From positions 1 to 40,826 of the forward strand of contig JANQSG010000009.1 of assembly GCA_028284185.1 (NCBI GenBank): 40,826 nucleotides of DNA, written 5' to 3'. A program made the translations under genes and the position numbers. Below, piece after piece: positions 17,891 through 23,407 of this stretch; the stretch's first letter is position 1, and every line of letters begins with the position of its first letter. Source of the stretch: Kangiella sp. GTDB taxonomy: Bacteria; Pseudomonadota; Gammaproteobacteria; Enterobacterales; Kangiellaceae. The notes beneath the pieces were generated by a model. The model saw only the letters and a list, made by a program, of their open reading frames with translations, did not search any database and was not told where the DNA came from.

Positions 17891-19690
17891 TTATTGATTG
17901 ATTGCGGCATTAATTCGTTTGACAAAAACATCAGCTTCCTCAAAGCCTGTGGCTCGGTATTGGGGAAGCTCTTTACCGTTTCGATCAAAGAACAAAATAC
18001 TCGGTAAACCAAGCACATCGTAGGCTTGCATCAATTCCACGTCGAGTTTGTCATTAGCAGTGACATCAGCTTGTAATAAGACACTATTGTTCAAAGCAGC
18101 AATGACCTTAGGATCGCTAAAGACCAATTCTTCAAACTCATAACAGGCAGCACACCATTCAGCAAAGAAGTCCAGCATTACTGCTTTTCCTTCTGCATTG
18201 GCTGCTTGAATTTGTTGTTGCAGTTGTTCTAAAGTTTTAACGCGAATAAAGGGCAGATGTTGGCTCATTTTGGTTTGAGAAGCCACTTCAGTGTTGCTTT
18301 TTAGCGGGTTTAGTAGATCACGATTACCTTTAGCACCGCCTACCACCAATAAAGTGCCATAAATTACCATGATCAAGCCCAGGGCCTTGAATAAGGTACT
18401 CCAATTGCGGTTAGCTAATTGATTCTGTAGTAAGAAGGAACCCGGAACAATGATAAGCAGCGCCCAGCCATACATATAGATCGAATTTGGCAGTAAATGT
18501 TTGACCAAATATAAAGCAACCCCCAACATAGCCACACCAAAGGCTGCTTTAATACCATCCATCCAGGCTCCGGCTTTGGGTAAAAACTTACCTTCGGTCA
18601 CCGCAATTAAAATTAGGGGAATACCCATACCGATACCCAGTCCATACAATGCGGTTGCACCGAGGAAAATATCACCAGACTGAGCAATAAATAATAAAAT
18701 GGCAATTAAAGGCACAGTGACACAGGGTGAAACGATCAGTGCTGAAATGGCACCCATAATGGCAGTGCCAAGATAGCCACCTTTTTGTGAGTTGGATTTT
18801 TGTGCCAGTTTGGCTTGCAGGCTGGCAGGTAATTGCAATTCATAAAAACCGAACATTGAGAGTGACAATAATACAAATACCCCTGCTGCAGTAATAACAA
18901 AAGCCGGGCTTTGCAAATAGCCAGATAAAGACTTTCCGGCAAGCGCCACAATAATGCCAAAAATGGCATAAACAATGGCTACGGCTTGGGTATAGGTCAG
19001 CGATAAACCAAAGGCCCGTTTGGTGCTAATGTTCTTGCCTTGACCTGCGATAATCCCTGAAATAATCGGAATCATGGGGAACACGCAGGGGGTAAAGGTT
19101 AAGCCCAAGCCAATTAAAATAAATTTAAAGAAATTCCAGAGGGCACCATTAGAATTAAGGCTATCGACCAACTGATCCTGCTCGGATACAAAGCCAGTAT
19201 CATCTGGAGAAGCGCTAACACCAGCAATAACACCAGTAACTTCAAGCTCAAACTCTCGACTGGTGGGCGGATAGCATAAACGATCTTCGGCACAACCTTG
19301 AAAATCAAGTTTGACCTTAATAGGGTTCTTTTTAGCTTCTTCAATCGGAACCGAAAACTCGACGAATTTGTAGTAGATTTCGGTTAGGCCAAAATAGGGA
19401 TCATCTTTTTCGTAGCCTTCAGGGATCACTGGCTCGCCTAGCACCGCATCATCGGAAGTCACATTGAGACGCATCTTGTAGAGGTAATAGTTCTTGGCAA
19501 TATCGAATTTCACCAGGAGCTGATTATCCAAAACCTCAACTGTCGGCACAAAAGCTTCATCAACCGCTAATAGCTTTTCCTCTTGTTCAATGAGTTGGCT
19601 TAGATCAATTGGCGTGTTGGCATGAATTGATGCTGTGCTTAAAAAAAATAAAGCCAAAATGCCAGAGATGTATTTTTGTATTCTATTCAT
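17891..19690 (-). CDS. dsbD: Thiol:disulfide interchange protein DsbD
   Basis: 599 residues with the full three-part architecture. A signal peptide (1-24) is followed by a periplasmic alpha domain with C133 and C139 (F-Q-G-C-A-E-D-R-L-C-Y). Eight membrane helices carry the redox cysteines C202 (TPCVFPMIP) and C323 (SPCVTVPL). The C-terminal thioredoxin domain has W-C-A-A-C (C513, C516). DsbD moves electrons from cytoplasmic thioredoxin to periplasmic substrates. It is 18 bases after apbE, at the end of the tlpA-DUF4266-DUF3570-apbE operon, so it may supply reductant to the TlpA-like protein of that cluster (inference). Confidence 0.96.
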   Translation of the reverse strand: MNRIQKYISGILALFFLSTASIHANTPIDLSQLIEQEEKLLAVDEAFVPTVEVLDNQLLVKFDIAKNYYLYKMRLNVTSDDAVLGEPVIPEGYEKDDPYFGLTEIYYKFVEFSVPIEEAKKNPIKVKLDFQGCAEDRLCYPPTSREFELEVTGVIAGVSASPDDTGFVSEQDQLVDSLNSNGALWNFFKFILIGLGLTFTPCVFPMIPIISGIIAGQGKNISTKRAFGLSLTYTQAVAIVYAIFGIIVALAGKSLSGYLQSPAFVITAAGVFVLLSLSMFGFYELQLPASLQAKLAQKSNSQKGGYLGTAIMGAISALIVSPCVTVPLIAILLFIAQSGDIFLGATALYGLGIGMGIPLILIAVTEGKFLPKAGAWMDGIKAAFGVAMLGVALYLVKHLLPNSIYMYGWALLIIVPGSFLLQNQLANRNWSTLFKALGLIMVIYGTLLVVGGAKGNRDLLNPLKSNTEVASQTKMSQHLPFIRVKTLEQLQQQIQAANAEGKAVMLDFFAEWCAACYEFEELVFSDPKVIAALNNSVLLQADVTANDKLDVELMQAYDVLGLPSILFFDRNGKELPQYRATGFEEADVFVKRINAAINQ

Positions 19691-19708: not shown

Positions 19709-20623
19709 TTACCGCCGCTGTATCCAATGGACTATGTCCTGAGATTCTAAAAAGGTTTCTGCATTTTTGCCCTGCAACATAGCAAGAGTAGAAAACAGTC
19801 CTGCTTGAGTACAGGTTTCTGCTAATACTGTCACTGAAGCAGGCGCATCTTCAATTGGCCAACCGGTTTTGGGGTTCAAAACATGGCTCAGCACTTTGCC
19901 TTCATCCAGTAAATAGCGTTTGCTATCACCGCTGGTAGCAATTGCCCCTTGCTTTAATCGAATTCTAGGCGCAATGTTTGAGCGATTCTCTGCCAATAAA
20001 ATTTCATCGATGCCAATATACCAGGCAGCTCTTTGTTTAGGTGCCCTTGTGGCAGCGATATCACCGCCAAAATTAACAAGCGTCGGGTTATCGGTTTGTT
20101 GCTTTATTATATTGGTTACCGAATCCACTGCAAATTCTTTACCAAAGCCGCCAAAGTCAATAGCCATACCTTTGGGTAATGTTAAAACCGGATTTTGCCA
20201 TTTGGCTTTATCCCAGCCTATCAGGGAGACTAATTCACTGACGCTTTGGGGATTGGGAATGTTACAACTACCATCAAATTTCCACAATTTTCCTAAAACA
20301 CCGGAAGTGATATCAAACAGGCCTTCGCTGATTTGATAACAGTTATCAGCAAAGTCGAGCATCGCTGCCATTTCTCTATCAACCTCAATCGGCTTGCCCT
20401 GGGCATGGTTGATTTTATGGATGAGATTATCATGGCGGTAGCGGCTATAGGTGGTTTCTATTCGCCAGGCTTCTGTGGCAGCCAGCTCCGTCAGCTTTTT
20501 GGCCAACTCCCGATCTTGCGATTCAACAATAATCTCACAAGGGCCAGCCATAGCAGTAAAACTGCCATGGATAAAGCCCTGATGAGATCGATATTGGATT
20601 GATCTATCGGAGATAGGAGCCAT
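19709..20623 (-). CDS. apbE: ApbE-type FAD:protein FMN transferase, without signal peptide
   Basis: 304 residues. ApbE enzymes split FAD and attach FMN to a Thr or Ser in a target protein. Family motifs are FTAMAGPCEIIVES near the N-terminus, SEGLFDITSGVL, AIDFGGFGKEFAVD, LVNFGGDIAA and the nucleotide/Mg site ATSGDSKRYL with SHVLNPKTGWP. There is no hydrophobic leader or lipobox, and an in-frame TAA directly precedes the ATG, so a longer secreted form is excluded. This is notable because most bacterial ApbE proteins act outside the cytoplasm. It starts 10 bases after the DUF3570 stop; that protein carries a plausible target motif. Confidence 0.93.
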   Translation of the reverse strand: MAPISDRSIQYRSHQGFIHGSFTAMAGPCEIIVESQDRELAKKLTELAATEAWRIETTYSRYRHDNLIHKINHAQGKPIEVDREMAAMLDFADNCYQISEGLFDITSGVLGKLWKFDGSCNIPNPQSVSELVSLIGWDKAKWQNPVLTLPKGMAIDFGGFGKEFAVDSVTNIIKQQTDNPTLVNFGGDIAATRAPKQRAAWYIGIDEILLAENRSNIAPRIRLKQGAIATSGDSKRYLLDEGKVLSHVLNPKTGWPIEDAPASVTVLAETCTQAGLFSTLAMLQGKNAETFLESQDIVHWIQRR

Positions 20624-20633
20624 TTAAAGTGTG

Positions 20634-21944
20634 TTAAAAACTATAATTAATCCTTAACATAACGGCATTCCATTCTGGTAACAAGGTTTGCTCAGTTAGA
20701 GCACCAAACTTTTGTGGTTCAGTCGGTGATTGAGTGTAATACTCTAAGGCTGCTCGCCACTGGTTACCGCCTGTGGACTTCCAGCCATATTCAACCCCCA
20801 ATGTTATGGCATCATATTCGGCTAAGCGATAATCTGCAGAGGCATAGGTTGGAGTAGGGTTAGTTTGCAATAAATAGGCTTTATAAAAATCAGCTTCAGT
20901 TTGGCTGTAATAACGAACATGAGGCTGTATATAGTTATCATTGGATAAAGCAAAACGATAACGTAAATCGAGGGTATGGGAGTCAATACCCCAATCGTCG
21001 GTCATATAGCGGTAGGATAAATCCACAACATCACCATCAAGGTAATGCTTATAGCGACTGAATAAACTGTGTTTGGTGCGCTTATCAGGGCGGTTTTCAA
21101 ATAAAACATTCGCGGTACTGATACCATCATCAAAATAATTGCCGTCAGCTCCCAGGACACTTAATACTTTATAGGGATCATTATGGTAGCCATCGGAATT
21201 ACTGTAGGAGTAATTCACCTGAAACAAGCTATTTTTATCAATGACTTGAGTAATTCCAAATAATAAATCAATCGTATCTTTATTTTGGCTGCCCGGAATT
21301 TTTGCCTGAGTCGTGCCAACGGGCTGCATTCTGGCCAAAGCAATTGGCGCTCCGCCAACCGGATCAATGGAGTCACTAGCAAATGACAAGCCTGCAAAAA
21401 CCGTACTGTTATTATCATTAAAATCGTGGCTGATATTGGTGTTTACCGAGATAGACAGATAATCATATTCTTTGGAAATATTTCCACCAATTGTAGCCTG
21501 AGTATCGTTGGAAATAGGAAAAGACCAATTAGTTGCAAGGGCAACCCGAGTATCCAAGAAGGTATCGTCTAACGGGTAAGTGTTAGCGTTCACCTGATAA
21601 TTCGCATTTCCAGAGGGGGTGGTAAAGGTTTGCACTTGATTGGAAGCTACTGCACCGCTGGGAGATGCCCCAGTTAATGAGTCCAAAGTCAGTTTGAAAC
21701 TTAAGGTTTCATCCTGATCGAGTAATTTAGTCGCACTAAAAACCGGTTCCAGTGCTTGAATACGACTATTATCTTCGCCATAAAACAAAAATGCAGCGTC
21801 AAATTTCCATTCCCCAACTTCCTGTTCTGAGTTATAGGATTGCTTTTCTGATGATTTGGGATTTTTTTCATCGGCAACCGCGGTATTGGTAATCAGAGTT
21901 AAAGCGGCTGAAGTCAGTGCTGTTTTTATTGATAGATTCTTCAT
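20634..21944 (-). CDS. DUF3570 outer-membrane beta-barrel-like protein; candidate flavinylated protein
   Basis: 436 residues with a Sec signal peptide (about 1-24, cleaved near AVA-DE). A long series of alternating amphipathic strands follows, ending in the aromatic terminus MLRINYSF, typical of outer-membrane barrels. DUF3570 features include the strand preceding D-S-L-T-G-A-S-P-S-G (88-97) and the long loop with GNANYQVNANTYPLDDTF. Residues 88-94 fit the ApbE target pattern D-x-x-[ST]-G-A-[ST], with S94 as the predicted FMN acceptor. The family's function is unknown. It lies between DUF4266 (15 bases upstream) and apbE (10 bases downstream). Confidence 0.9.
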   Translation of the reverse strand: MKNLSIKTALTSAALTLITNTAVADEKNPKSSEKQSYNSEQEVGEWKFDAAFLFYGEDNSRIQALEPVFSATKLLDQDETLSFKLTLDSLTGASPSGAVASNQVQTFTTPSGNANYQVNANTYPLDDTFLDTRVALATNWSFPISNDTQATIGGNISKEYDYLSISVNTNISHDFNDNNSTVFAGLSFASDSIDPVGGAPIALARMQPVGTTQAKIPGSQNKDTIDLLFGITQVIDKNSLFQVNYSYSNSDGYHNDPYKVLSVLGADGNYFDDGISTANVLFENRPDKRTKHSLFSRYKHYLDGDVVDLSYRYMTDDWGIDSHTLDLRYRFALSNDNYIQPHVRYYSQTEADFYKAYLLQTNPTPTYASADYRLAEYDAITLGVEYGWKSTGGNQWRAALEYYTQSPTEPQKFGALTEQTLLPEWNAVMLRINYSF

Positions 21945-21959
21945 GTAAATACCCTAAAA

Positions 21960-22181
21960 TTAATTGCAGCCACAACCGCCACCGGCGTAGGACTTTCCAC
22001 CGCTGGAAGCTTCTTTACTGAAATAAATATGATCATCAAGTGCATCGGTTAAGGGTTGTTCATTTAATGCCATTTCTGGTTTGGCTAAATTTTCTTTTTC
22101 CCAGGGTTTAACGCCCATGGTGCTACAACCGCTACCGGTAACTAATAACAGGGCTGCGAATAGGACTTTAATTTTTTTCAT
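21960..22181 (-). CDS. DUF4266 small lipoprotein
   Basis: 73 residues from the ATG at 22181, chosen because GGAG lies eight bases upstream; longer in-frame starts lack this. A lipoprotein-type leader ends in V-T-G-S-G-C (C19), with G rather than L at -3, so lipidation is likely but not ideal. The conserved W-E-K-E-N-L-A-K-P-E-M block follows, and the C-terminus ends in G-G-G-C-G-C-N, the DUF4266 hallmark. The terminal C-x-C could bind a metal or take part in thiol exchange (inference). It overlaps the end of the thioredoxin gene by 14 bases, indicating coupled translation. Confidence 0.9.
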   Translation of the reverse strand: MKKIKVLFAALLLVTGSGCSTMGVKPWEKENLAKPEMALNEQPLTDALDDHIYFSKEASSGGKSYAGGGCGCN

Positions 22182-22668
22182 GCTTAGACTCCAATTTTGG
22201 TTCCATTGACGCGGATACTGAATATTGTTCACTCAATAAAGAGTTAATTTGATGCTCTAGCTCAGGTATATCTTTGCTGCGAAAACCCTGATGTAGGTAT
22301 TTAGCAACTCCGTTTTTATTGAAAATGTAGCTGCTGGGCATGGCTTTGACTTGAAATTGTTCTGCAATCTCTCCCTTTGGATCGTAAATGATGGGGAAGT
22401 TGGCAGGGTTTTGTTTCAGGAATTTATCTGCATTAGCTTTATCCGAATCCAGATTAACTGCGATTAAGACAAATTTTTCTGGATCATATTGTTTTACAAA
22501 TTGATTCATGGCTGGAAAGGACTTCATACAAGGACCACACCATGAAGCCCAAAAATCCACATAAACCACTTTGCCTTTATATTGATTAATATCTAAAGAC
22601 TGGCTTTGGACCTGATTAGAAAGTGTCAAACCTAGGATAAAACCTAATAAGAAAATATAATTTTTCAC
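22168..22668 (-). CDS. TlpA/ResA-type periplasmic thioredoxin
   Basis: 166 residues, starting at a GTG. A signal peptide or anchor (YIFLLGFILGLTLS) is followed by a thioredoxin fold with VVYVDFWASWCGPC (C44, C47), the cis-proline region AMPSSYIFNKNG and a short charged tail. TlpA-like proteins reduce periplasmic disulfides or cytochrome c apoproteins. As first gene of the operon ending in dsbD, it is likely reduced by DsbD and acts on another cluster product, perhaps the C-x-C tail of DUF4266 (inference). Confidence 0.92.
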   Translation of the reverse strand: MKNYIFLLGFILGLTLSNQVQSQSLDINQYKGKVVYVDFWASWCGPCMKSFPAMNQFVKQYDPEKFVLIAVNLDSDKANADKFLKQNPANFPIIYDPKGEIAEQFQVKAMPSSYIFNKNGVAKYLHQGFRSKDIPELEHQINSLLSEQYSVSASMEPKLESKHEKN

Positions 22669-22794: not shown

Positions 22795-22909
22795 TCCATT
22801 TCACGCTAAATTTGGTTATAGTTTTTATTTAATGCAAAACTTAATTCTGGTTTGTTTGTCGGAAAGTGTTAACTAAAGTTTGTAAAACTATTTGGTACGG
22901 ATATATTCA

Positions 22910-23407
22910 ATGAGTAAATACAAATTAATGCTATTGATACTAGCATTGGCCATTATCGCCGTAGCTAATACCCTGGACATGCTTAACGATTTATCGTTAA
23001 AAGTGACTACTGCCCACTTATTAGAAGAAGGGGTGATTGTGGTTTTTTCTTTGGGTTTAATGGGTTATTTGATTTTTTTATTACGTAAACAATCACAATT
23101 ATTGGATGATTTAAAATCAGAACTGGGTAATAACCAACAATTATTGGAATTACAAAGTGAAGAATTGAGTAAGGCTCGCAAAGAATACAGCCAAATTATT
23201 CGTCAGCAGTTTGAGCAGTGGGCATTTAGTGAAACTGAAAAAATGACAGCCTATTTATTACTGAAAGGCCTTAGTCTGAAAGAAATTGCTGAAGTTAGAG
23301 AAATAAAAGAAAAAACGGTACGCCAACAAGCTTCTAATTTATATGCAAAAGCTAATTTGCCAGGTCGTCATGCATTAGCTGCCTGGTTCTTTGAGGATTT
23401 ATTATAA
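22910..23407 (+). CDS. Membrane-anchored LuxR-type transcriptional regulator
   Basis: About 165 residues from the ATG at 22910; an in-frame TTG at 22892 is less likely. Two membrane helices (about 3-20 and 40-60) enclose a short periplasmic loop. A coiled-coil stretch (about 62-105) follows, then a LuxR-class helix-turn-helix with F-S-E-T-E-K-M-T-A, LLLKGLSLKEIAEVREIKEK and VRQQASNLYAKANLPGRHAL. There is no receiver domain, so a signal may pass directly from membrane or periplasm to the DNA-binding part. It is divergent from the tlpA-DUF4266-DUF3570-apbE-dsbD operon, its probable target. Confidence 0.88.
   Translation: MSKYKLMLLILALAIIAVANTLDMLNDLSLKVTTAHLLEEGVIVVFSLGLMGYLIFLLRKQSQLLDDLKSELGNNQQLLELQSEELSKARKEYSQIIRQQFEQWAFSETEKMTAYLLLKGLSLKEIAEVREIKEKTVRQQASNLYAKANLPGRHALAAWFFEDLL

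Follow-up and report, generated by a model that had tools for sequence, protein, structure and literature searches.

Signal-less ApbE homologues lacking the catalytic aspartate may flavinylate a predicted outer-membrane barrel of the DUF3570 family before its export

The window, which is the whole 40,826-nucleotide stretch of Kangiella sp. DNA analysed here, contains a minus-strand operon in the order TlpA-like thioredoxin, DUF4266 lipoprotein, DUF3570 protein, ApbE and DsbD. The DUF3570 (PF12094) gene, at 20634..21944, encodes a 436-aa protein that matches profile positions 2-427 of 427 (Pfam E 4e-140; 467.7 bits against a curated cut-off of 25), making it a full-length family member. Its nearest named relatives belong to a Kangiellaceae MAG (74%) and to Kangiella aquimarina (71%); no relatives were found among viral contigs, and none among PDB sequences at E values up to 1. 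As the first-pass annotation had stated, apbE starts ten bases after this gene: the DUF3570 stop codon ends at 20634 and the ATG of apbE lies at 20623. The ApbE-family protein itself (PF02424; 19709..20623, minus strand) scores 202 bits against a curated cut-off of 25.6 (Pfam E 2e-59). Upstream of DUF3570, on the same strand, are a small DUF4266 lipoprotein with a C-terminal GGGCGCN tail (21960..22181; Pfam E 2e-23) and a TlpA/ResA-like periplasmic thioredoxin with a WCGPC motif (22168..22668; Pfam Redoxin/AhpC-TSA; NCBIfam ResA-like, under the curated cut-off). The last gene of the operon (17891..19690, minus strand) encodes DsbD, a transmembrane thiol:disulfide reductase (Pfam DsbD_TM E 4e-87, DsbD_N E 1e-28; NCBIfam PRK00293 above cut-off), which is presumed to be the electron donor. 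A LuxR-type regulator with hydrophobic N-terminal segments is divergently transcribed at 22892-23407 (plus strand); it weakly resembles the NCBIfam LIC13292 family (61 bits, cut-off 200) and, because a relative lies at a similar distance in locus L036, may control the operon.

Residues 88-94 of the DUF3570 protein had been read as an ApbE-type flavinylation motif, and the ORF translation gives D88-S-L-T-G-A-S94 (DSLTGAS, 21663..21683, minus strand, read from 21683 to 21663). When the protein minus its first 25 residues was shuffled 200,000 times, D-x-x-[ST]-G-A-[ST] arose by chance in 0.43% of the shuffles; a chance origin within this single protein is thus unlikely, and the question is settled by conservation among relatives. 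A second near-motif, SGAV, stands right behind TGAS with a proline between, but has no acceptor Ser/Thr. By contrast, the DUF3570 protein of Chlorobium luteolum, studied in 2021 (Meheust et al., eLife, PMC8238504), has two conserved [ST]GA[ST] motifs, and its labelling was abolished only by mutating both. With its single TGAS, the window protein departs from that description, and we regard it from its sequence as a single-site form, two motifs being the 2021 paper's description and no strict definition.

To sample relatives, whole genomes were searched with the PF12094 profile, which meant that the motif played no part in the choice of hits; matches were found in 29 of 398 genomes in a phylum sample and in 71 of 274 in a class sample. 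The surroundings of most hits were fetched as 118 stretches, which with the window make 119; G484:C228, G484:C414, G446:C10, G599:C54, two G468 fragments and one tiny G527 fragment stayed outside this set. Flanks were mostly 6-8 kb and some ended at contig ends, so that 'no ApbE' and 'no HZS' mean none within the stretch. DUF3570 ORFs of at least 300 aa were aligned (n = 117), and L174 and L177, which hold fragments only, were dropped. The clusters are of two types. Type A shows no HZS gene and usually has ApbE as a neighbour; type B (41 stretches) carries an HZS-alpha-like protein that resembles a lipoprotein of locus L061 with a hydrazine-synthase-alpha middle domain (PF18582) and two CxxCH motifs. 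L145 and L152 resemble HZS-type members, yet the HZS gene is absent from their stretches.

The motif proved to be conserved in DUF3570 proteins with linked apbE. In non-HZS clusters with ApbE within 1.1 kb, Gly92 and Ser/Thr94 are kept in 49 of 51 aligned proteins and the exact [DE]xx[ST]GA[ST] in 39 of 51; in 13 of these 51 relatives, the loop contains an additional [ST]GA[ST]. Non-HZS stretches without ApbE keep the glycine and the acceptor in 12/21. Among type-B stretches, no ApbE was found in 29 of 41, and of these 29 the motif is kept in 5 and replaced by D-x-[IV]-[ST]-S-A-[ST] in 23. Judged by sequence, the type-B cluster is usually without ApbE, and the motif glycine is usually gone from its DUF3570 (SSAS). 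It had further been proposed to test whether the motif occurs only beside apbE. This holds broadly between cluster types (49/51 ApbE-linked against 5/29 HZS without ApbE), a contrast that is confounded by clade and amounts to nearly two groups of related sequences rather than 80 independent events. It does not hold within the HZS type, where the motif is present in 4/12 stretches with ApbE and 5/29 without (p = 0.41). The strict rule was consequently rejected, and SSAS also occurs in three HZS clusters with ApbE directly beside DUF3570. The SSAS proteins may not be wholly unmodified, because one substrate with a Gly-to-Ala change in its flavinylation motif retained about half of its flavinylation, according to the available text of PMC12052999.

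Several loci depart from the common layout. The type-B cluster L061:2924-14575 encodes the HZS-alpha-like di-heme lipoprotein, an SH3/barrel protein, a second predicted outer-membrane protein, TlpA, DUF4266, DUF3570, a small secreted protein and two TPR proteins; the HZS-alpha-like protein recurs in 40 further stretches. A third arrangement is seen at L149:7070-9781 and L158:7769-10480, where the DUF3570 site reads DQVTAAS with a downstream VSGATG and the neighbouring ApbE has a signal-peptide-like start and the canonical Asp. Double-length DUF3570 ORFs of 904-920 aa with an extra region are present at L041:8266-11001, L091:7482-10241 and L099:6366-9077.

That a DUF3570 protein carries covalent FMN attached by ApbE is upheld by the motif conservation described above together with the 2021 experiment, in which coexpression with its cognate ApbE in E. 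coli led to flavinylation of C. luteolum DUF3570 (PMC8238504). The first-pass annotation knew of no such report; the flavinylation and the cluster were in fact both published in 2021, so its core idea of a flavinylated DUF3570 beside ApbE is right and already in print. In our judgement, flavinylation of the window protein at S94 is very likely.

To place S94 in three dimensions, the window protein was modelled with AlphaFold2 from 54 aligned sequences. The result was a confidently predicted 16-strand barrel (pLDDT 87.1, pTM 0.83), in agreement with the earlier proposal of an outer-membrane barrel. All 50 Foldseek hits listed are outer-membrane proteins, among them OmpG, FadL, AlgE and PfeA, at modest query TM-scores of 0.22-0.46. 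A predicted signal peptide, an even number of strands (16 main strands in the model) and a C-terminal aromatic residue (YSF, ending in Phe436), all expected of an outer-membrane beta-barrel, are present together. The motif had also been placed directly after a barrel strand containing K-L-T-L. K84-L-T-L87 does lie in a strand of the model (79-92), but the first five motif residues still belong to that strand and S94 lies just past its end. With topology assigned by counting strands from a periplasmic N-terminus, S94 would sit where strand 3 ends on the extracellular side and a 38-residue external loop begins. Most positions with at least 75% conservation among the 117 DUF3570 proteins (n = 37) fall on the same side: 28 belong to external loops or to the external third of a strand, against 3 in the periplasmic third (Fisher p 0.012); because the 117 proteins include type B, these residues do not simply mark a flavin pocket. 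We consider it likely, on this model, that the flavin lies at the outer face. The predicted extracellular position of S94 supports, without proving, the suggestion of the first-pass annotation that the protein is an electron outlet at the cell surface.

The DUF4266 protein offers a candidate route for electrons toward this site. A CxC lies within three residues of the stop codon in all 190 DUF4266 ORFs, and the protein is, judging from its sequence, a probable outer-membrane lipoprotein and thiol relay. When an artificial concatenation of DUF4266 and DUF3570 was folded, the tail fell in a stretch with pLDDT < 50 (residues 55-117) and was not placed. The combination of DsbD, a TlpA-like protein and a CxC lipoprotein suggests thiol electrons moving outward; that they leave the cell through an outer-face flavin is a fair guess, which we judge to be evenly balanced. 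The DUF4266 tail as a whole, D[DE]HIYFSKE[AG][ST]SGG[RKQ]x[FY]xGGGCGCN, is near-invariant in the 77 sequences listed from named loci, far above the rest of the protein.

What the first-pass annotation missed is the nature of the adjacent ApbE, which by its sequence has neither a signal peptide nor the catalytic Asp. In the window gene, the ATG directly follows an in-frame stop codon, and no segment resembling a signal peptide lies behind it, so that the export signal or lipoprotein anchor of canonical ApbEs is absent by our home-made hydrophobicity score. This score is generous and only a rough guide (DUF3570 itself reaches it in 57/199 cases at 2.0 and in 141/199 at 1.7). At a threshold of 2.0, it is reached by 2 of 118 type-A ApbEs, compared with 158/177 TlpA-profile hits, 169/190 DUF4266 ORFs and 10/16 other ApbEs. 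In the two high-scoring type-A proteins, the scoring segments are found at the beginning of the ApbE domain or inside it, and at a threshold of 1.7 the type-A count rises to 10/118. The six other ApbEs below 2.0 are L141 and L175, cut at a contig or stretch end; L134, whose hydrophobic start was missed by the start-codon rule; L054; L056; and L260, the third ApbE of the window genome (G000:C11; 287 aa; no clear signal peptide, canonical Asp kept). The 118 type-A ApbEs and the 190 DUF4266 ORFs include loci found by patterns derived from close relatives of the window protein, with 51 of the 118 coming from the profile sample and at least three pairs (L037/L224, L095/L183 and L102/L192) representing the same genome in both collections. 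L149 and L158, non-HZS loci with a secreted ApbE, were placed among the 16 comparators after they had been seen.

Aligned to solved ApbEs and these comparators, the type-A proteins also differ at the catalytic centre, which in canonical enzymes holds an Asp-Ser-His triad (PMC8906456, PMC12052999, in the text available). The catalytic Ser and His are kept in 118/118, but the metal-binding Asp is Gly in all 116 readable type-A proteins (two are cut), against Asp in 14 and Glu in 2 of the 16 comparators. The lost residue aligns with D301 of FmnB and D280 of E. coli ApbE, the latter a metal 1 ligand (PMC4767422, Table 3). A GKG sequence has changed to GKE, with Glu in 117/118 type-A ApbEs versus Gly in 16/16 comparators; this Glu adjoins the position of E. 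coli E169, a ligand of the second metal. Two near-constant cysteines are present in 113/118 and 108/118 type-A proteins versus 0/16 and 1/16 comparators (L260 has the second Cys). In the window ApbE, the corresponding residues are Ser231 and His247, Gly275 in place of the triad Asp, Glu163 of GKE, and Cys29 and Cys271. In a tree of 51 type-A and 16 comparator rows, the type-A ApbEs make up one side of a branch with support of 100/98, the bootstrap being not fully settled. Since the Asp that binds Mg in solved ApbEs is missing, the activity of type-A enzymes is not assured; the GKE Glu could replace the lost carboxylate in a carboxylate swap, as far as the alignment indicates.

Genome content was then used to ask which ApbE serves DUF3570. 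A type-A ApbE profile was searched against 24 chosen genomes, and its hits fell into two clearly separated sets (E 1.4e-94 or stronger, E 2.9e-44 or weaker). Nine of the tested genomes carry a non-HZS DUF3570 stretch without linked ApbE, and 8 of these 9 have a type-A gene at another place in the genome; it lies beside another DUF3570 copy in G492, G598 and G600 and on the same contig in G641. In G001, which has a DUF3570 with a GAS motif, the type-A profile search of the genome found none. Genomes with type-B DUF3570 only gave 0/13. Of the remaining two of the 24, G484 has a type-A ApbE, and G430 has none and its non-HZS DUF3570 is without the motif at the aligned site. G446, G429, G564, G572, G579 and G411, which also hold such stretches, were left out of this search.

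Moreover, exactly one PF02424 match was found in 5 of the 58 genomes chosen for non-HZS DUF3570, namely G102, G231, G482 (100% complete), G403 (96%) and G432 (81%). The sole ApbE is the DUF3570-linked type-A gene in G102, G231 and G482 and a distant type-A gene in G403, and the DUF3570 sites of these four genomes read DTWSGAT, DVISGAS, DSISGAT and DILTGAS, respectively. Because no other ApbE is seen in these four near-complete genomes, any flavinylation of their DUF3570 must be done by the signal-less enzyme. As DUF3570 is exported and a signal-less ApbE is the sole candidate, attachment in the cytosol before export is the simplest reading. Against a cytosolic model stand the non-HZS clusters L149 and L158, whose ApbEs have a signal-peptide-like start and the canonical Asp, and 7 of 12 HZS-cluster ApbEs also score as secreted (9 under a less strict form of the scoring, with a further one truncated where its contig ends). 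These enzymes suggest that other kinds of DUF3570 are served by secreted ApbEs. For the type-A system, we judge cytosolic attachment to be probable.

Taken together, we lean slightly toward reading the locus as an electron path to the outer membrane that is driven by thiols and based on flavin, of the DsbD/DUF3570 type reported in 2021, with FMN attached in the cytosol before export. While the DUF3570 precursor is still unfolded in the cytosol, with FAD at hand, the signal-less ApbE would put FMN on its S94, a step that would be new. The flavinylated precursor would then pass through Sec, with passage of the FMN-bearing chain through SecYEG being assumed, and BAM insertion would leave the FMN at the extracellular mouth of the 16-strand barrel, from then on out of reach of periplasmic enzymes. 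Electrons could run from DsbD through the TlpA-like protein and then the CxC tail of DUF4266 to FMN, and on to an acceptor. The full picture is more tentative: a surface flavoprotein made by cytosolic FMN attachment to a barrel precursor, through a dedicated clade of signal-less ApbEs with the metal-binding Asp swapped for a Glu elsewhere in the site, then exported by Sec and BAM, so that the DsbD/TlpA/DUF4266 relay can feed an extracellular flavin. We hold this complete scheme to be possible, at somewhat less than even chances.

Other accounts place the chemistry, or the flavin, elsewhere. A secreted ApbE encoded elsewhere in the genome might flavinylate DUF3570 in the periplasm ahead of BAM insertion, with the operon enzyme in a different role. 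The window genome does encode a second ApbE with a signal-peptide-like start (L258) besides the canonical-Asp enzyme L260, and ApbE acts on a seven-residue motif (PMC12052999, in the text available), yet the four near-complete genomes in which a motif-bearing DUF3570 meets only a signal-less ApbE make this account unlikely, as does the presence of type-A genes in 8/9 genomes with unlinked non-HZS stretches versus 0/13 HZS-only genomes. That the operon homologue is no flavin transferase at all, and instead binds FAD or FMN to some other end (chaperoning, sensing or flavin hydrolysis, for example) while DUF3570 stays unmodified or holds a non-covalent flavin, strikes us as quite improbable. The uniform Asp-to-Gly replacement would fit such a role, and Ala at Mg-coordinating residues of FmnB greatly reduced or abolished activity in the work as available (PMC8906456); retention of Ser and His throughout, the Glu gained at GKE beside the E169 position, which could replace the lost carboxylate, and the motif Gly and acceptor kept in nearly all linked clusters argue for a transferase.

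The third account concerns geometry. The FMN may face the barrel lumen or the periplasm and take part in a purely periplasmic thiol/flavin step with no outlet to the outside, in keeping with TlpA, DUF4266 and DsbD all being predicted as periplasmic or inner-membrane proteins and with the available text of PMC8238504, where Meheust et al. settled on no function and recorded VIT1 in 25 clusters. We find this doubtful, since in the model not only does the strand count put S94 at the external end, but all seven periplasmic turns have 2-5 residues and five of the eight external loops (4, 38, 2, 26, 35, 4, 28 and 17 residues) have 17-38.

If cytosolic attachment with an outward-facing flavin is correct, several consequences follow. 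Exported proteins are described as receiving their FMN from ApbE outside the cytosol (PMC12052999, available text), a picture that makes the supply of FAD there a puzzle; if a cytosolic ApbE loads an outer-membrane barrel, no FAD need be exported. Such loading of a cofactor ahead of Sec export would be a new route, it would put a flavin at the outer cell face without cytochromes, and it would mean that an ApbE active site can work without the conserved Asp. As far as our searches show, a signal-less, Asp-less ApbE clade tied by sequence to an exported, predicted outer-membrane barrel with a modelled outer-side flavin site is new. In the open-licence PMC literature (preprints being outside this scope), we found DUF3570 and DUF4266 named only in Meheust et al., no statement of DUF3570 as an outer-membrane barrel or of its ApbE as cytosolic, and a cytosolic ApbE only in the 2025 review PMC12052999, as far as its available text goes. 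In its section 5, a 2024 mSystems paper on flavinylated structures names the outer membrane in no more than general terms, and DUF3570 does not occur in the text available.

The closest known system is that of Meheust et al., who described DsbD/DUF3570/thioredoxin/DUF4266/ApbE clusters with DUF3570 flavinylated at [ST]GA[ST], described the CxC of DUF4266 together with DsbD, and proposed a thiol/flavin electron path (PMC8238504). The window holds the same five genes (DUF3570, ApbE, CxC DUF4266, a thioredoxin-like protein and DsbD). It differs in having one site, its second being SGAV, where the Chlorobium protein has two; the 2021 system names PF13899, which in the window is found in DsbD, the small thioredoxin being Redoxin/AhpC-TSA. 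The signal-less ApbE, the missing Asp, the barrel and the outer-face position are not discussed in the available text of that paper. Its DUF3570 constructs were made in the manner of the signal-truncated DUF2271 pair, and the cell pellet contained most of the labelled substrate; a DUF3570 retained in the cytosol can thus serve as an ApbE substrate, which is compatible with attachment before export.

Canonical periplasmic ApbE/Ftp/FmnB enzymes share with the window ApbE the PF02424 match, the triad Ser and His and a DxxSTGAST-type substrate; the window enzyme differs in having no signal peptide, Gly for Asp, GKE for GKG and two extra near-constant cysteines. The 2025 review describes cytosolic ApbEs for a cytosolic fumarate reductase and in eukaryotic fusions (PMC12052999, available text). 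The Klebsiella enzyme is likewise an ApbE homologue without a signal peptide, but its substrate, a soluble fumarate reductase, stays in the cytosol, unlike the exported outer-membrane protein of the window. For modification before export, the analogy is with HMW1C, a cytosolic enzyme that glycosylates the surface protein HMW1 in the cytoplasm before its Sec export (PMC3983070, in the portion available). It transfers a sugar rather than FMN and its substrate is a secreted adhesin rather than a barrel, but it would provide a precedent in kind for the cytosolic modification of an exported surface protein.
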